The notes beneath the pieces were generated by a model. That model was given only the letters and a program-made list of their open reading frames with translations, made no database searches and had not been told where the DNA came from. The translations under genes were made by a program, and so were the position numbers. Source: Diplocarpon mali (Eukaryota > Ascomycota > Leotiomycetes > Helotiales > Drepanopezizaceae). From it: a DNA stretch of 64,000 nucleotides. Positions 1 to 14,900 of the stretch are shown here, in pieces; the first letter of the stretch is position 1, and each line of letters opens with the position of its first letter. The stretch is from positions 237,394 through 301,393 of the forward strand of contig JAENRP010000012.1 of the NCBI GenBank assembly GCA_024741835.1, in the 5' to 3' direction.

Positions 1-551
1 TCGTCTCTTCAAGGATACGCAAATCCAACCTATTGATAATGGAGGCATCTCTAGGTGCTGCAAAATTCAGGGCTGATCCTAAAGCCTTAAAGGCGTTGGA
101 GCCGATTGAATGGAACAATTCTTTCTTTTCGATATTGCTAAGCAATGAATAGTAAGAGGAAATAGAGGAAGAAGGGTCAATTGTGATGCCTAAACCCTTC
201 GGATGCCGCTTCTTAACCGACAATTTTACTACTGATGATAGTGCTTTTATAGGTATATTCCTCTTTATTATGAGATAAGAAGTAGAGATATACCTTTATC
301 ACTTCTGCCCTATGGATAACGCGACCTTTATACCTTCTTATTTTCTCTATAATATGATGTTCAGCCTTACCTAATAAGTCCTTTGAATGCATTATGGACT
401 CTACCTCTTAGCTATAATAGCGAAAAGTGGAGGAGCCTATCAGCTTATGGCCTACCTTGAACCTCCCTAATTGATTGGCCTTGGTCTTTACAATTAAGTC
501 GTTTTGATAAAGAGAGATGCAAGTGCTGCTAATAAAGAAATTCCGATTTTC

Positions 552-574
552 ACTCGCGGTCCCGGCCCGCGAGT
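552..574 (+). repeat. 23-bp GC palindrome, copy 1
   Basis: Arms ACTCGCG and CGCGAGT are a perfect 7-bp inverted repeat around the 9-nt core GTCCCGGCC. It lies in frame in tandem copy 1, where it encodes TRGPGPRV, between Phe and Asn codons. The surrounding DNA is strongly AT-rich. Confidence 0.8.
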
Positions 575-1436
575 CAATTTTATTGGAAAGCAAGTCTTGG
601 ATTATTAGATCCTACCGATCGGATAAGGGCCAGCTTTTAGAAGCCTTAATAGGTGGGTCGGCTCTTAGTCGATTGTGAAACTCACTCTATCCGCGAAGAA
701 GACGAGTCAATGGACTTCTTAAGCACTCGGTTCAAAATCTTAACTAGCTCGAATGACCGCAAAGTTGAAGCGAAAGGAGATCTTGCGACCTATTACTGAT
801 GATAGCAATCCAATTATAGTGATGATGAAATAGGGACACCTTCTTGAAATGCTTTCGGATAATTCTTATAGGACTGGTGGTTTTATAGCCTTTTGCAATA
901 ATTACATAGCTATCTTTAATAAGAATACCTTGGAAAATGAGACTTGAATCTCCGATTTTGTCTTTTCAATCTCTGCTCTAGAGCAACCTCTAGTACCTCG
1001 ATAGATTAACGCAAGCAGAACCATTGCACCTTTTAAGGCAGCTTTTCATCTTAAGAACTGCGGTAGCCTCTTTGAAGCTATTATTAGTCGACGCTCTTAG
1101 ATAGATCTATTAGTTATGATTGAAGTACGGGAGTTGTTTCTTTTTAATAAAGACGAATTGAAAATCCACTTTGTAGAATATAATTAGAAGCTCTTTAACG
1201 CCTTTGTTAAGGCTTGGACGAACGTTATAAACACTAAGTCGCTTCTTTATAGACTTAAGTCTTAGGGATAGCGCGATAAAGTAAATGCTATCCGAGAGCC
1301 TGATGCACTGATTGATAAAGGCATTATTGCAAGAAAATTCGGAAAAGAGATAAACCGAGACGCTAGCATAGTGTTAGACCCTGATTTAGGAACCAATCCC
1401 CTGTTTTTACCCTTAAGCTCAGAAACGCTAAGACTG

Positions 1437-1459
1437 ACTCGCGAGCCCGGCCCGCGAGT
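1437..1459 (+). repeat. 23-bp GC palindrome, copy 2
   Basis: Arms ACTCGCG and CGCGAGT around the core AGCCCGGCC. In frame in tandem copy 1, encoding TREPGPRV. It differs from the copy at 552 by two core bases. It sits in the C-terminal low-complexity part, at about the position matched by the element at 5325 in copy 2. Confidence 0.8.
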
Positions 1460-1811
1460 GAGGTTGGACTCGGCTGGCTTAAGCCCACGAGATGGTTCGG
1501 ATGAACCTCGGTCACTAAATCTAGGGGTACTAATAGAAGATCCTTTAAGAGAGGTCCCCGAAGCTGAGAAATCGCTGAGAAATGAGAACTAATGCAAGAG
1601 AAGAAGACTCCGAAGTGACGATAGAATTGACAATTGAGTCAACTTGAGCCTAGAGAATCGAGTCTACTACCTCCCTCTTGAAAACCATTTGGAGAGATTG
1701 CGAATTAGAAGTTGAATTTTTTTAGGGATTATCTACTTTCTATACACCTGCACCTCTTTATTCTCAACCTATTGTTCCATTCTATGCATATTCTTTATTT
1801 ACTTTACTCTT

Positions 1812-1818
1812 TATATAA
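1812..1818 (+). promoter_or_regulatory. TATA box upstream of tandem copy 2
   Basis: TATATAA lies 54 nt before the inferred ATG at 1872, inside the 156-nt spacer between the two tandem copies. Position and sequence fit a core promoter, but the whole region is TA-rich, so a chance match is likely enough to matter. Confidence 0.3.
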
Positions 1819-3086
1819 TTCATTCTTTGATTATTCCCTTTATATGCAACTTTCTAACGCTCACCTTTGAAATGTCTTCCTCACCTTTGACAATTGTCAT
1901 TCACCAATTGTAGGTCCTTGTATACGTCACACCCCACTTTTGTTCCCACTTCCAAGCTCATTATGCCTACTTTTCCTTTGTGTACTAGCGCGATTTCAAA
2001 CTCTATAAATAAGCCTCTCCCCGCACTACGATTTTACTTTTTTTACCTTTTCTATAACCCTACCAGACCTATAACACTAGCACCACTACTATTGTCTTTC
2101 GTTATCAATCTTTTCTAGTATAAGCCTCTTATATTGTTAATCTTTCCTAAATAATTATCTCTTCGTTTAGAGCTACCTCTCCTGCTAAATAATTTATTAT
2201 AGTACCACTAACCATAAGTAAAAAGGCCATACCTAAGAAGAATATATCGGTTGTTGCCTTAGGCAATAAGTCCTTGAGCACTACTAATAATGAACTAATA
2301 TTAGAGGGAGGGTTCTTATAGGATGGCAAGTCACTAAGATCATTAGAAGATGTAGTGAGCACTTATAGAACGTTGGGTGAGACCGAACAGCAGGTATTCT
2401 TAAATTCATCTATTAAGGTGCTTAACTATAGAATTTCTACTGTTAAGGAAGGATTCTTAGGTTTTAATGATTTCTTAGACAAGGAACTCTAAGGCAAAGG
2501 TATTGATTATGAAAAGTTTTTGCAAGAGTATTAAGGGTATGCCAATTCGATTGATTTGTTTCGGAAGAACTGAGATAAGAAAAATGAGTGTATGAAAAGA
2601 CTGATATAGTTTATAAGCGGAATACGCGGAACGCTCTTTCGGAGCCACTTTATAAATGATATTACTGCGAATAATGCTTTGCGGGGACTCGGCAAGATTT
2701 TTGAGACATACTAACTAGTGGCCAAAGCTATACAGGTGTTGAATCATTTCACTATCTAAGAAGGCATAAAGAAGTTGCAGGGAAATAGTGCGCGGAGTAG
2801 AAAATTTGTTAGATTCTTAAGCACCATTGTGCACTCTACTATTCAAACTATAAAGGACAGCCCCGCTTGGTATAATAATCTTGCACTCCTTAACTAAACT
2901 GTTCTAGATACGCTCGGCCTGCAATAGTCATAATACGGTCTACTTATTGTAAAAGAAAAGATGATATATCTGGTTGAATACACTATGAACTACTTCGATG
3001 ATGAAATGGAGAGATGGGAATTTGTTATGCCTGCCGCCCTGAAGCTACTACTACCCGCGGCAGGATTAATAGACAAGCGCGATTTG

Positions 3087-3109
3087 ACTCGTAGGCCTGG
3101 CCCACGGGT
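3087..3109 (+). repeat. 23-bp GC palindrome, copy 3
   Basis: Arms ACTCGTA and CACGGGT around the core GGCCTGGCC, encoding TRRPGPRV in tandem copy 2. Several differences from the consensus are C-to-T or G-to-A, so the element has decayed together with its host frame. Confidence 0.75.
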
Positions 3110-3272
3110 AGAAGTACTACGTGATGAAGATGCCCTTGAGCATAAGGTGCCTGTGATATTGGGAACACAAATGGCTGACTGTTACGACCCTTATTTATTA
3201 GACTCAGATGAGTTTGAATTGCTGTCCCTAGAAATGCCCTAAATACCCTGAACACCAGTGGCAAAGAAAATG

Positions 3273-3295
3273 ACTTGCGAGCCTGGCCTACGGGT
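3273..3295 (+). repeat. 23-bp GC palindrome, copy 4
   Basis: Arms ACTTGCG and TACGGGT around the core AGCCTGGCC, encoding TCEPGLRV in tandem copy 2. It begins 186 nt after the start of copy 3 in the same phase, so the two are separated by a whole number of codons. Confidence 0.75.
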
Positions 3296-4502
3296 TAATA
3301 TACGTGACGCTATAGACTCAGAAGATGATTTATCTAATAAAGAGATTGGTACTGTTACTAATGTGCTAGAAATTTTTAATGATACTAAGAAGGATACTGC
3401 TGATGTTGTGCAATCCTTCCCCGATGACTTGCAAAAATTTGTTCTCAAATTCTACGAGTCAATAATGAAGCGTTTGAGAAAGGAAGGTCGGGAAGAAGTT
3501 TTGTTAGCATAGGAAGGAACGGCAAGAGCTGTTAAACAAATTATGAAACTGCACTAAGACGAATTCTCTATAGACAATATTATATAGTTCTTCATCGACC
3601 GCAAGAAATTGAACGGTGACTACTATATTCTTAAAGAAAAGTCAGAAGATAGCACGACTATTGTCTCTATGGAATGCTGTCAAGTTCCCCTTAACATTAA
3701 GATGATACTATAGCATAGCGATAGATTCAAGATTGTAGTAATACTAGAAATGAAAACAAGACTCTCTAAATTTGTAGTAGGAATGTTCGAGGACTTTAAT
3801 TTTAATAAATTCTGCGCCCTCTATGAATGACAATACGCGTAGTACTATAGGCTGGCGATAACAGGCCTTAATAATAAAGATATGTCGTCTAACATCTACA
3901 AATTCTGCACTGCTCCTGACCTAAAGTTGTTCTTACTGCACCTAGGGAATTATGCAATTATGGCCACCGGCAATAGAATGGCAAGCTAGGTTAAAAAAGA
4001 TATGTCGTTAGGATTTGCTAAGTTTAAGGTAGCGCCCAAAGCTCTGAAATTATTCTATAATATCGCCTGGACCCCCGCCTGGTATAAGTCCATACTGACC
4101 TTAGACAACTTCATATCACTCTATAGCAAAGGCTTTTTGAATATGCCCAAACTGTTTAGTTGCGCATTCTTAGGCATAGTGCGCACATAAGGCTATGGTA
4201 TTCGCGGGAAGAGTTCGTTCGTGACTTTGGCATAGGAAGAGGTAGAAATGTATAGACACCATTTCCGCACCTTAGATAAGAAATCATTACCACCTTCCGC
4301 CTTCCTCTATAATATAACTTATAGCTTAATATAGTAGACCTTAAGGATGTACTATAGTCTGTATCTTAGTGCTCTATTGACTTATTATAATTCTTTATAT
4401 AAGCTGGTGGCGTATCCTAAGCCTGCACAGTTTGTAGGCATTGACTACTATTCGCGAATTGTTTCTACTAAGATTAACGCTAATACGAGATTCGTGAGAT
4501 TG

Positions 4503-4525
4503 ACTCCTGGGCCCGGCTTGCGGGT
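4503..4525 (+). repeat. 23-bp GC palindrome, copy 5
   Basis: Arms ACTCCTG and TGCGGGT around the core GGCCCGGCT, encoding TPGPGLRV. It lies in tandem copy 2 at the position that corresponds to the element at 552 in copy 1: about 498 and 504 nt after the shared SLG block, and both followed by an Asn codon. Confidence 0.75.
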
Positions 4526-5324
4526 TAATCCACCCGACAATAGAACCATTGACTACTACGTGATTCCGGCAGCTAAACAATCGACTGGAGAATTCGCTGT
4601 TTGGGAAAAATCCTATGAATTATCAAATCTCACACCCTAACGCCTTAAGAATGCTTAGTGGATCTTACTGAATTTGGCTCGAAATGCAGTATAACGGAAA
4701 GAATTGAATATTAGAGAGAAGACACTTCTAGAGGAGTACATCTCCAACGAGACGACTCCGTTCTCTGTGTTTATTAGATAAGGCACGTTCGTTGATATAG
4801 AATCTGCTAGAGAACTAGGAAAAGGTGGCTTCCTCACTATTAGCAACAACTATATAGAAGTTGTTAGCAATAACTCACTAGAGAATGGCATGGACCTAGA
4901 AGATTTTCTTATCGATTCCATTGGCATAAAGAGACCTAGCATTGCAAGATGGAGTGTTGCTAGAGAATCGTTAGCCAAATTTCGTGCAACGCTCGGCATA
5001 ACAAAAGGAGGCCTATTGTCAGAAGCTCTTATAAGAAGACGACTATGGAATAACCCATTGGTGGTAATGATTGTAAAGGATTTGTTCGCAAAAGATGTGT
5101 CTTAGCTAATAGCATACTTGAAGAAGCACGAATAAGAACTTTTTAAAGATTTTGCCAGTACTTAGAAGCTGGTTTAACAACTGGAGCTACAGTTGTATAG
5201 CGATAAGTCTTGGACAAAGACCAAGGACATAGATGATAATATCGAAGCTGATAACCTAATTGACGAGACGATACTTCTCGAGAAGTACAGCACTAAGAAG
5301 CCTTGTGCAAAAACCCCTGACACG

Positions 5325-5347
5325 ACTCCTGGGCCCGGCCCGCAACT
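5325..5347 (+). repeat. 23-bp GC palindrome, copy 6
   Basis: Arms ACTCCTG and CGCAACT around the core GGCCCGGCC, encoding TPGPGPQL near the start of the low-complexity tail of tandem copy 2. It corresponds in position to the element at 1437 in copy 1. The right arm shows two G-to-A changes. Confidence 0.75.
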
Positions 5348-5739
5348 TGATTTAGCGAAGGGCAAGGCTAAGGAAGTGGTATCCGTGGAATCTCCCGCCT
5401 CCCCCTCCTCTATTACCGACAATTCCCCTAAGGATGATGACGATGATAATAATAATAACGCCACTACACAAGTCTCTCTCCCTATTAGTAGAAGCCGCCA
5501 AAGCACACTAGCATCTGCCCGAACCACCGAAGCTCCCGCTACACCGAGACCTGTCTCGTCGGACACTAATAGCGATGCTATAAGAAGAAGTGGTCGTTTG
5601 GCGAAGAGAGTGTTATCTAGTAATAGTTCTCCTTATCCTTTAAAGAGAACTAAGGAAAACTGATACCTAGGTTGGTTCTATTTTAATTGTTTTTGCGATT
5701 CTATAGCTTGTTTGTTTGTTTTGCTAGTTTTGTTTTCTA

Positions 5740-5762
5740 ACTCCCGGGCCCGGCCCGTGGGT
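5740..5762 (+). repeat. 23-bp GC palindrome, copy 7 (outside the frame)
   Basis: Arms ACTCCCG and CGTGGGT around the core GGCCCGGCC. It lies 76 nt after the stop codon of tandem copy 2, in AT-rich 3' flank and in a different phase. This shows that the element is not confined to coding sequence. Confidence 0.8.
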
Positions 5763-5785
5763 GAAAAGCGTATAAAAAAATAAAA

Positions 5786-5823
5786 NNNNNNNNNNNNNNN
5801 NNNNNNNNNNNNNNNNNNNNNNN
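5786..5823. other. Assembly gap (38 N)
   Basis: A run of 38 undetermined bases is flanked by A-rich sequence on both sides (TAAAA before, a 12-A run after). The true distance and content across it are unknown. Confidence 0.98.
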
Positions 5824-6056
5824 AAAAAAAAAAAACTCCTCTTTTTTTTTACCTTTGATAATAATATAGCCCTAGTTTAGGCCTTTTGATATATTAGTTT
5901 TCTCGCACTTAAGGGTTTGCTAGTGATTGACATGCTATTGCTTTGACTTATATCGTTTTGTATTCTTTGCTAATAGTAGTGGGGGCCACTACTTTTGTTG
6001 TTTAGGATATATGTGAAGACCTAAGATGGATAGGTCTTGTGATATATATCATATGA

Positions 6057-6927
6057 TCGGCGCAGGACGGTAGGAGGATAAAAGGGCCATCTTCTATACA
6101 TAGAGATAGCGCGTGTCGCTATAGTACTGAATATACCCTATACTTGGGACTTGTTCCTAACATCTTGTCTAAGAGAGCCCGCTTATGGTGCTTCCTCCTC
6201 TTGTTTTTGGGTCTTCCCTTAGGCCTATTCTTGTGTTGTCTCCCCTCAGTTTTATACTACAGATGCTATTTCGGTGCAAGGGCCGGAGATCCTGCGGTGA
6301 CGAGCTCATGGATATTAGGAGGTGAGGTCAACTCGCGAAGCCAGCTTGTATGCTCGCTGATTTGATGCAGACACTTTCCTGAGATCTTGCTATAGTGAGT
6401 CTATTGCCCATCTATGGACTCGAATACTCACAATTCCAATAGCTGTCTTCGATCAGGACAACGGCAACCTACTCCTGGCGCAATATCAGGACTGCGGCTC
6501 TAACATCATTCCGATCGGCTCAGGGGTCAATGCCGTCCCTTCCGTCACGGGAGCTTGCAGGCCAACACGCACTGCTGCCTCTATCACCTCGAAATCTTCC
6601 ACCCGTCCATCCAAGTCCCCGAGTACCGGCAGTCCCAAGGTTACGGTCTCTTCGTCGAAAGCGGCATCTAGTTCCGTCAAGTCGTCCTCGTCAAAAAAAC
6701 CCTCAAGCCTCAGCTCCTCCAAAGGTCCATCCTCCACGAAACCACGCTCAACCCAGCCCGCGAAAAGTACGGCTAGTTCAGCGTCAAAAAAATCGAGTTT
6801 GTCCCCCTCAAAATCAGGTCCCGGTTCCAAGCTTTCCACGGCATCCACCACAGCAAAGCCCACAACCCTGTCTAGCTCAAAATCCTCATCGGCATCAAAG
6901 AAGAGAACTTCGACTCAGAAGCCGTAA
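6057..6927 (+). pseudogene. Ser/Thr/Lys-rich protein fragment, start missing
   Basis: An open frame from 6057, with no ATG, contains a strongly hydrophobic stretch (about 6186-6270). It can be joined through a plausible 49-nt intron (6322 GTGAGG to 6370 CAG, branch-like CTGAT) to a second frame that ends in TAA at 6925. The second part starts with an ordinary segment containing DQDNGNLLLAQYQDCGSN and then becomes a long Ser/Thr/Pro/Lys-rich tail, like linkers of fungal wall or secreted proteins. The missing start codon and the position next to the RIP-decayed block suggest a broken gene. I cannot name the family. Confidence 0.35.
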
Positions 6928-11799: not shown

Positions 11800-11946
11800 A
11801 GACATGAAAGAGAGCGACGATAGGCCACTTGCTTTCAATGTTTTGTATTTTGCATCGTAGCATCGTGATGGTTGGTCATGATTGATCACATGACGCATGC
11901 CCCATCGTATTGTACATTTATCAAGTCCAACCGTTCCATGCGCCAA

Positions 11947-14900
11947 TTAGTATGCCGAACGAGTTCGAATGTCCTGCTCTCTTGTTAGCGGCTACTGGAA
12001 CCCATGGCCTGAAGACGGTGCTTACTGAAATTTTTCGCTCAATCTCCCTGACTGACCGGTCCAATTCCCCTGCAATCATTTGTTTTTTGTCCGTAGGCAA
12101 GAGGGTATATCTTTCACACAAGTCTCCATCAATGACCCCCTTGACAGGAACGTAATAGCTTCGGTAGATAAGGTGATCTCTTCCAGCCAACGGAGCATCC
12201 TCTGATCGAAGATGCTGCTCAAGAGTCTGGAAGAAATCGACATCTTCGCGACTGACAAAAGGAATTAGGATGCCGAGTGTTCCCTGAATCCCACCCCACA
12301 ATATGCATTCACGCCCTCCCGCAACCAGATTGGTCTTTTGTATGCTCATTGGAATATCTTGACTGAAGAAGTGGGCCATCAGCGTCAGCCGATGGGGAGA
12401 GCCTTGGAGGTATGATCGCTCGTGCACAAGGTGGGCCCCGGAGCCTTCCTCATCGGCTTCCTCGCTTGCTTTGGGAGGACATCTGAGAAGCCACAGGTTG
12501 CCGAACTTATCACCACCTGCGACTGTTTCGTAGTCGACCATTGTTGTACATGAGGTCCAACGAGCGATAGTATCATCCACGAACGGAATAATCCTGTTCT
12601 CCTGAAATTTGTATACGACCATGATGATGCTCTCTTGAACGTCACTGACCACTATACGGCTGCCTTGGGTTTGGAGGCCAACTATCAAGTTTGGCGCAAC
12701 CTCTGCTTGGGCCTTTCGCAGAAGTTGCCGCATTCCGAGGTCGTAAATTCTCAATTCTTTGCCAATCCCGACCAAGAGTCTTCCCTGGAACCCTAGAAGG
12801 GCCATAGGCGGTTCCTCGACCTTTGTTTTATGAATGAACTCGATTTCTTTGCCATTTTCATGGAAGCGGTACACATGCAGGAATCCAGCTGTAGACGATC
12901 TTGGGTTAACGACTATATCTTTGCCCGTTCCAACAATCAGAAAGAACTCATCGTCTTGACTTGAGAACGAAACAGCTGCTATGCTGACTGCTGCCTCGTT
13001 ATCATCGAGGTGTATCTTTTGAAGAACAATCTTTTCGGTGACGGGGTCAACAACCGATATGCATGATGCCCAGTGGTTTTTGCCTCGTGGATAGCCAAAC
13101 TCTTCTGGTGGTAGGACAGCCGCATCGCCATTGACGACGGCGGGATCTTCTAAAAGCTTGGCTTTCGTAGCCGGCGAGAGAATGTTATTGTCAGATTCGA
13201 TCGTGTAGAACAAGGGGTGTTCTGGGTGACGGACTAAACGGCGAGGGGTGTAAGTAAGTGGTATGGTTTCTTGCAGAAGGTTGTCGGTGAGTTTGTCGAT
13301 TGAGAATATCCTAGCGAATGGCAAGTGTCAGCAGATACCGCTCTAGAAGTTGCTTTGTGCATAGTAGATAGATGGTGAGATCTTCAGAAGGAACAATTGG
13401 ATTTATAATGTTTAATCTTCATTGCCACGTTGGACATAAGAAGTTTAACGATAAGAAAATCATCATATGATCTCTAAGGATTGAATAAAGAACTTGGCTG
13501 GGATATACCTCAAATTTTGCCCCTGAATACCGACCATCCCTTCGGTACATTGTTCGCTACTAAAGTTCCAGCCCCATTCGAGTCCAGGATAATTTAGCGG
13601 CGTGAGCATAAATCCTTTGGTGACGGGATCAGAGTATCCGAGCCACGGTCTGGAACTTAAAGCAAGCACAGCGGATTGTCCTTGGACGGAGACGCGGAAC
13701 AGTTTAGCAGGTTTCGGGCCAAGGAATCGGGTGCGAGTGTCTGAAAGCTCCCCAGTAACCTCGTCCAACACAGTCCTCAGATAGACTCCAGAGTAAAGAC
13801 CAATGTGAAGGTAAAGAGTGGAGCCTCCAGATGATGAATCAGACATGGCCATAATCGACAGAGCCGAGGGAGCTGATGTCAGAGCTTGGACTGACTTGTT
13901 TTCCAAAGTCGAGTCCGGGTCGAGGCTCAAGATCCGAACGGTTGAATCGTCACAACCCACAGCCAGAAATTGACTCCGTACTCGGCCTTCCGGAACCTCC
14001 CCAAGACTCAAGCAGGTGACAGTGCCGCTCATCTCTTTCTTTTCGTCGTACTCGGCAAGAGATCCATCGGAATCCATTTCGAAATAGACAATCTCACCGG
14101 AGCTCAGAGCAACGGCAACCTGTCGTTCGTTGGTAGTAGCTGCAACGATTGAGCGATGCTGGGGCGCAGCCCATTCGTTGACACGTCGGTCTGCTCTAAT
14201 ATGTCTAATACCTTTAGGGTGAACTTGGATCAAGCCATCATCGCCGAGTTGTTGCACTGCTAAAGTTGATGCACTGGATAAAAACCCTGTGTCCGTGACC
14301 TCTTCAACTGTCTCTCCGATGCTGAGGACAAGGGTGCCATTAGTGAAAGACAATATGATATAGGCATCAAAAGTGTCGTTTCGAGTGAGCTTTGTAGTCC
14401 AAACAGCGGATGGGATACCAGGCAATTCGGATTCGACAATTTCGCTGACTTCTAGTCCGTGTCTCAATGTTCTGAAAGTACTCCGAGCCCCGGTCCCGCA
14501 GATAGAATAGATCTGGGGGGCATCTTCTTCGGTCAAGTTTGCGACCTTGCAGTCCATCAAGGGGTTCATGGAGTCAATGCTCTCCACGAGACTCAGATTC
14601 TCCGCCGGTCGAGGGTGAAAGTAAACAGGCGTATATGATTCCTGTGGATCAGTAGGGAAATTGTCGCTGATGAATTCGATCTCCTCATCGTCATCTCCAA
14701 GCTTTTCGAATTGGTAGAATTGATGATTGCCGAACTCGCTGGCCACGAATAGGAAGCCACTCTTCAAAATGCATAAACTGGTGGCGACAGGAACACTATC
14801 AAAATACTTGATCTTAAGGCGTTTGACTTCTCCAGTCGGTATACCCTCGTCATTCTCAACCATTTCGATAGTAACTTTAAAAAGATCTCCATCGTCTGTC

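Follow-up and report, generated by a model that had tools for sequence, protein, structure and literature searches.

A GC-rich palindrome common to unrelated LTR retrotransposons of Diplocarpon mali and written into their reading frames almost always in one phase

Rickettsia palindromic elements are coding-frame-compatible palindromes of about 100-150 bp that lie in the host genes of a bacterium, and the palindromes of Neurospora mitochondria are short, GC-rich, fungal and found around tRNA genes. The GC clusters of yeast mitochondria (GC42) are also short GC-rich palindromes in AT-rich DNA; they have been proposed to be mobile, are sporadic between strains and have AG target nucleotides (PMC4478555). 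Among long terminal repeat (LTR) retrotransposons, the plant Ty1/copia Sireviruses contain repeated motif (RM) boxes, short palindromes with a CGG...CCG core for which a regulatory role has been proposed; they occur many times per element, are common to elements of low overall similarity, and are described as non-coding, lying in LTRs and upstream of env (PMC2829016). In the VANDAL/VANC system of Arabidopsis, a short motif that is enriched in certain transposable elements (TEs) has grown in number through the formation of tandem repeats, and one such motif, VANC6, occurs in an unrelated TE as well; these motifs are mainly non-coding and are bound by a known element-encoded protein (PMC5735166). 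Here we describe a palindromic unit of the fungus Diplocarpon mali, first noticed in a stretch of 64,000 nucleotides (contig C12, positions 237394-301393; hereafter the window). The unit is real and reaches beyond the window, being common to unrelated LTR retrotransposons and written into their frames in one phase. Unlike the RM boxes, it lies mostly in coding frames, in one phase, and in Ty3/gypsy elements too, with the mapped copies in internal coding and untranslated parts; sporadic occurrence and target nucleotides like those of the mitochondrial GC clusters were not seen among the copies compared. It is also shorter than the Rickettsia elements and has been seen only in retrotransposons. 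A literature search at the level of titles and abstracts, in which few subscription papers were covered, returned no description of such palindromes in fungal or LTR retrotransposon frames. LTR/Copia and Ty3 elements are reported in the genome paper of the related Diplocarpon coronariae, whose available text contains none of the terms palindrom, gypsy or RIP (PMC11527701).

The unit is an imperfect palindrome of about 35 bp, GATTTS-ACTCSCGGKCC-N-GGMCCGSGAGT-SAAWTC, with a 23-bp core at its centre and AT-rich arms; information content across 25 sites drops near positions -5 and +29. The initial annotation of the window gave the positions of seven 23-mers correctly (552, 1437, 3087, 3273, 4503, 5325 and 5740), and their surroundings are indeed AT-rich, with a GC content of 0.38-0.40 in windows as far as position 6000 and of 0.44-0.65 elsewhere. 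A scan of the 49.4 Mb assembly (676 contigs) with the 23-mer at up to three mismatches gave 168 forward and 165 reverse matches, compared with 0 and 1 for the reversed control; as expected for a palindromic site, forward and reverse matches overlap, and the number of places represented is at least 168. The carriers comprise at least four LTR-retrotransposon families, two Ty3/gypsy (A and B) and two Ty1/copia (1 and 2), in which the palindromes lie mostly in linkers between domains, some of them in tandem arrays and some untranslated. They occur in gag, pol, ORF3 and ORF4 (ORF, open reading frame) of gypsy elements, in the copia polyprotein and in untranslated places, and not in one protein family; the motif is thus found in four families rather than in the single gene family that had been named beforehand as the mark of an ordinary protein motif. 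All 165 palindrome instances in 88 loci (158 places, as some loci overlap) fall in LTR retrotransposons, 161 of them matching a carrier family directly and the other four being homologous to the copia 2 array. Dispersal through host genes, as envisaged at first, is therefore not what these loci display; they were fetched by motif match and do not constitute a host-gene survey. No host-gene palindrome was found in the 88 motif-picked loci or in the 57.7 kb of non-element window, host genes elsewhere not having been surveyed, and viral contigs searched with the 23-mer and a pol alignment yielded nothing.

The palindromes of the window belong to a decayed Ty3/gypsy LTR retrotransposon, element A, which is at least 15.5 kb long and is cut by the window edge; its coordinates run over the DNA upstream of the window (L031) plus the window. 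It has 14 palindromes, at 803, 1812, 3728, 3890, 5857, 7292, 8559, 9945, 10830, 12480, 12666, 13896, 14718 and 15133, which are more evenly spaced than random (coefficient of variation 0.52, p 0.012; exploratory). A weight matrix built from these 14 copies recovers all of them, seven in the window, at scores of 22.9-39.3, and finds nothing scoring 8 or more in the remaining 57.7 kb of window sequence. Two are untranslated, 803 ahead of gag and 15133 after ORF4, and 11 of the 12 coding copies start on codon position 1, one being in another phase. One coding copy lies in gag before a zinc-knuckle-like stretch, two more are found between protease and reverse transcriptase (RT), a single one separates RNase H from integrase, and another is in the pol tail; ORF3 contains three and ORF4 four (the zinc knuckle of A and the protease of B were recognised by eye). 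The window, on its plus strand, contains the ORF3 copies at 552..574 (TRGPGPRV; the positional homologue of 4503) and, in the C-terminal tail, 1437..1459 (TREPGPRV). Those in ORF4 are at 3087..3109 (TRRPGPRV; the positional homologue of L031:8559 in ORF3), 3273..3295 (TCEPGLRV; without counterpart in ORF3), 4503..4525 (TPGPGLRV) and, again in the C-terminal tail, 5325..5347 (TPGPGPQL). Two palindrome sites thus share an alignment position between ORF3 and ORF4, while the third pair sits in poorly alignable tails. The seventh copy in the window, at 5740..5762, is in the 3' untranslated part, directly ahead of an A-rich stretch and the 3' LTR. As first stated, the six in-frame palindromes all start on codon position 1; they lie in two ORFs, and the one at 5740 is untranslated; the peptide T-x-x-P-G-P-R-V attributed to all six is present in three and fails for TCEPGLRV, TPGPGLRV and TPGPGPQL.

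Copia 1, on the minus strand of locus L052 (RVT_2 3.7e-47, copia gag 1.3e-10), has a pair of palindromes between gag and the protease region, two between the integrase part and RT, and one between RT and the 3' LTR; each of the four coding copies starts on codon position 1. Ten further copies were taken as 400-bp stretches from 35 other homology matches, having been picked by homology and not by motif. Each has two units at the gag-protease linker and two or three at the integrase-RT linker, and all 45 units, read in whichever frame has the fewest stops, start on codon position 1, the 25 array spacings all being multiples of three (45, 48, 54, 66, 72). Across loci L070, L073, L081, L085 and L106-L125, the integrase-RT linker varies from two to four units per copy and so constitutes an in-frame minisatellite. 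Copia 2, on the plus strand of L052, has a palindrome array in the frame of its RVT_2 match (3.2e-20), whose seven units with a score of 10 or more all begin on codon position 1; the RT pieces of the two copia families are 21.6% identical over 222 residues. Gypsy B (L086) has RVT_1, RNase H, integrase and a zinc knuckle, with LTRs 95.7% alike, and its four palindromes (one in gag, two before RT, one between RNase H and integrase) are likewise all on codon position 1. A shorter, possibly non-autonomous element (L037-L043, L046) has part of gag and the LTR in common with A and has palindromes of its own.

Phase 1 of the unit reads [DN][LF]T-x-G-P-G-P-x-V-[NKD]S. When homologous and tandem sites are counted once, there are 15 independent, non-homologous coding sites (nine in A, two in copia 1, three in B, one in copia 2), and phase 1 is used at 14 of them (p about 6e-6 for any one phase, or 6e-5 with only two phases available and the phase-2 site left out of the count). 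The off-phase copy is the RNase H-integrase palindrome of A (5857), read as LASPACES. In phase 1, wobble stands opposite wobble across the dyad (paired positions sum to 24), and the TTG ahead of the core puts TGA into phase 2. The initial annotation had held all three forward phases to be free of stops; this is incorrect, since phase 3 of the 3087 core contains TAG and, once the two bases ahead of the core are included, phase 2 contains TGA in four of the six (1437, 3087, 3273, 4503). Stop avoidance therefore explains part of the phase bias. Pair 5/19 sorts the palindromes into two orientations plus a symmetric type. The common orientation claimed for the seven in the window stands by the centre base (C or T in all seven) and falls by the 5/19 mismatch (four symmetric, three of one kind), and both orientations occur in the larger set. 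The untranslated palindromes at L031:803, window 5740 and L052:1362 share the form of the coding ones.

The distribution among relatives was inspected in three protein searches, in each of which at most about 8000 candidates were scored, the third being the best 120 of 812. Among the candidates scored, the nearest named proteins are from D. coronariae, at 69-75% identity for ORF4 and 87% for copia. Within the 160 proteins compared, the repeated peptide is found only in P0001-P0004 and P0041, all of D. coronariae, although other carriers may exist; three further proteins have a single chance-like match each. In the ORF4 proteins P0001-P0004, the first two sites read RGPGPRV in 8/8, the third TPGPGSRV in 3/3 (P0004 being without the segment) and the fourth TPGPGP[RQ]L in 4/4, and the annotated copia P0041 has the peptide two plus three times. 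Six aligned copia relatives, including those of Rhynchosporium graminicola (P0043) and Blumeria (P0050), are at the protein level without the palindrome peptide at both linkers, and the pol relatives of A are without the repeated peptide. Four of these, from metagenomes (P0006, P0008, P0010, P0011), have EPGS close to the start of pol, 56-77 residues before a YKRKADK block and near the place of the 3890 palindrome in A; this EPGS perhaps reflects a different palindrome in other fungi.

At the nucleotide level, the seven window sites are occupied in all 11 copies compared, 76 of 77 palindromes being whole and the remaining one, 5740 in L059, running off the fetched stretch. Loci spanning 10 of the 14 sites of A, relatives at 71-76% identity included, revealed no empty site; sites 803, 3728, 3890 and 8559 are spanned by no other fetched locus and 15133 by one, and some of the spanning loci had themselves been picked by a match at 5857 or 10830. 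No insertion polymorphism was seen among copies of A at spanned sites or in the ten copia copies. Nor was a target duplication seen, there being no empty nucleotide site for comparison. The earlier view of a peptide-compatible palindrome that has spread is upheld by its presence in at least four families of two superfamilies, coding and untranslated, and by its absence at the copia linkers of the six relatives. Recent movement is not borne out, the sites being fixed within the family and none of the ten spanned sites of A being empty. The likeness to Rickettsia palindromic elements accordingly holds for appearance, with the same palindrome at 15 independent coding sites in a tolerated frame, and not for a demonstrated mechanism, no empty site having been found among the copies compared.

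The copies of element A that were inspected are decayed: at least 31 in-frame stops interrupt each of the top 40 ORF4 matches and at least 37 each of the top 38 pol matches, almost all of these stops being TAG or TAA. Palindromes apart, C to T change peaks at CpA (0.59) and CpG (0.51), as expected of repeat-induced point mutation (RIP). RIP does not make transversions, which therefore report on the time when the elements were active. Constraint was tested on these in 11 copies and in ORF4 alone, since transversions are unevenly spread between ORF3 and ORF4. Third positions with transversions number 0/28 in the palindromes, compared with 210/1121 elsewhere (p 0.0033) and 32/160 in the local flanks (p 0.0034), and 0/28 compared with 152/1121 when only variants in at least two copies are counted (p 0.018). 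For all positions the figures are 1/92 and 326/3355 (p 0.001), and a random-window test gives p 0.0026. The absence of third-position transversions from the palindromes points to nucleotide-level constraint or homogenisation; such constraint argues against a purely peptide-level cause and suggests function rather than a passive insert. Pair 9/15, in which both positions are wobble positions, covaries (20/25 against 14.4 in shuffles, p 0.0145; 1 of 17 pairs, uncorrected). Together, the four families, the untranslated copies, the off-phase copy and the third-position conservation in ORF4 lead us to reject an ordinary motif of one protein family.

We therefore favour the palindrome as a putative cis-acting signal that was passed between LTR retrotransposons by copying, multiplied through tandem duplication and tolerated in linkers in one phase, and we put the probability of this at roughly one half. 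Its function is what we infer; the sharing itself is most simply accounted for by past spread between families. The signal would most likely be a DNA dyad site recognised by a protein that the host or the element encodes, an RNA hairpin being the less likely candidate. Elements may acquire the palindrome from one another by copying, through recombination or template switching during reverse transcription, after which tandem duplication would multiply it. Copies would last only where the frame tolerates them, in linkers and in the phase that reads T-x-G-P-G-P-x-V. This phase may be favoured because wobble faces wobble, so that both arms could change together with the peptide unchanged, and because the flanking TTG gives no stop in it; the peptide would then be a tolerated by-product.

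Several observations weigh against a conserved nucleotide signal. The constraint test is informative in ORF4 only, ORF3 and pol varying too little, and at site 552 the 28 copies of ORF3 have one singleton third-position transversion (1/7 vs 29/510). Homogenisation by gene conversion is a possible source of the same third-position signal. Watson-Crick pairs in total match shuffles (270 vs 272), so pairing is not generally maintained, and pair 5/19 is mismatched beyond chance (6/25 paired vs 11.7 expected). Linker positions would fit a peptide role as well, and no insertion event was seen among the copies compared. In dead copies, CpG decay is about equal to that of the flanks (0.43 vs 0.51) and CpA decay is higher inside palindromes (37/43 vs 0.59), although C to T change at CpC and CpT is rarer (0.03 and 0.01 vs 0.17 and 0.24). 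This mixture also leads us to set aside a GC island left by RIP, as the palindromes are not simply shielded in dead copies.

A selfish palindromic mini-element without function for its carriers, comparable to mitochondrial GC clusters or Rickettsia palindromic elements, inserting indiscriminately and surviving in retrotransposon linkers and untranslated parts where it does little harm, is the alternative that fares best, though we consider it somewhat unlikely. It would explain why four families carry the palindrome at places that are not homologous, and in either orientation, why an identical 23-mer is found at A 3728 and at L041:631 of the shorter relative with flanks that do not align, and why one coding copy (5857) is in a different phase; the absence from the copia linkers of the six aligned relatives and the growth of arrays are in keeping with it too. 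However, copies of A do not differ in presence or absence at the spanned sites, both linkers are occupied in 10/10 copia copies, no target duplication was seen, none of the palindromes lies in the 57.7 kb of non-element window, and the third positions of ORF4 are constrained.

We regard it as improbable that [DN][LF]T-x-G-P-G-P-x-V-[NKD]S is a peptide motif retained because of a protein role, such as that of a polyprotein cleavage site or a spacer between domains, with the palindromic DNA as a side effect. The gag and pol copies do lie at or near junctions (gag before the zinc knuckle, protease-RT, RNase H-integrase, gag-protease, integrase-RT), and the peptides hardly vary in the four annotated D. 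coronariae ORF4 proteins and recur in copia P0041. Yet untranslated palindromes have the same form, LASPACES shows the RNase H-integrase copy of A being read in another phase, gypsy and copia aspartic proteases need not share a site, and a peptide role does not predict 0/28 third-position transversions in ORF4.

A more far-reaching version of the signal that we favour, which we hold to be quite improbable as it stands, holds that a sequence-specific factor, for which the ORF3/ORF4 pair of element A may code, would recognise the palindrome and counter silencing or drive transcription. Unrelated gypsy and copia elements would have taken up this evenly spaced target, in the one phase in which it can drift silently, as a shared anti-silencing code.

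A hairpin in the genomic RNA, repeated many times along each transcript and acting in packaging, dimerisation or processing, seems very doubtful. Three 35-nt copies do fold at -17.2 to -21.4 kcal/mol (z -3.4 to -7.0) and one 23-nt core at -12.1 kcal/mol (z -2.9), but there is no strand bias among the non-Watson-Crick core pairs (21 G-U vs 24 A-C, a test blurred by RIP decay), and the 5/19 mismatch is conserved and both orientations occur. The 2A ribosome-skipping peptide, whose motif is D-x-E-x-N-P-G-P, is rejected, as the palindrome peptides have no N before P-G-P and no upstream D-x-E.

The host element itself runs in the order gag and protease (which share a frame), RNase H and integrase (which share a second), ORF3, ORF4 and 3' LTR, with Pfam matches, in order, to Asp_protease_2 (3e-5), RT_RNaseH (7e-13) and Integrase_H2C2 (2e-13). 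No Pfam match to RT was obtained in the decayed L031/window copy; the pol relatives P0005-P0018 carry RVT_1 (PF00078). Window 1-5780 is a high-copy repeat: 24 of 25 scored matches (of 324 candidates) are other copies at 78-83% identity, 22 of which cover nearly the entire query. The C-terminal part of ORF3, which begins upstream of the window at about L031:7713 and has in-frame stops, occupies 1..1592 on the plus strand, and ORF4, with 31 in-frame stops and annotated relatives in P0001-P0004, occupies 2199..5663 on the same strand. The two are large homologues in tandem, of about 1100 residues each, with 337 of 1045 aligned residues identical. Two pieces of ORF4 tried against Pfam had no match, and the protein search made with ORF4 found homologues in D. 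coronariae only, among the candidates scored; an AlphaFold model of ORF4 has a mean pLDDT (predicted local distance difference test) of 28.7. Part of the 3' LTR lies at 5955..6259 on the plus strand. Its end is supported by the 5' LTR end, L031:1-132, since this terminus and the stretch up to window 6259 are both matched by one common sequence at other loci. A run of N (assembly gap) at 5785..5823 stands beside the A-rich stretch after the last palindrome. The assembly appears to break at this palindrome more generally, with contig ends or N runs adjoining it in L041 (end of C192), L043 (end of C357), L040, L042 and L046 as well as at window 5785-5823. Beyond the element, a 468-residue open frame at 11921-13327 on the minus strand may belong to the CPSF-A/RSE1 family.

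A nucleotide signal in the coding frames of unrelated retrotransposon families, in a single phase, is unusual. If the palindrome is functional, different LTR retrotransposons of one genome would share a cis-acting code; if it is inserted passively and nothing more, it would represent the nuclear equivalent of mobile palindromes known from mitochondria and Rickettsia. The D. mali elements offer a directly testable case of a signal spreading between elements, by copying and tandem growth, under the constraint of the reading frame.

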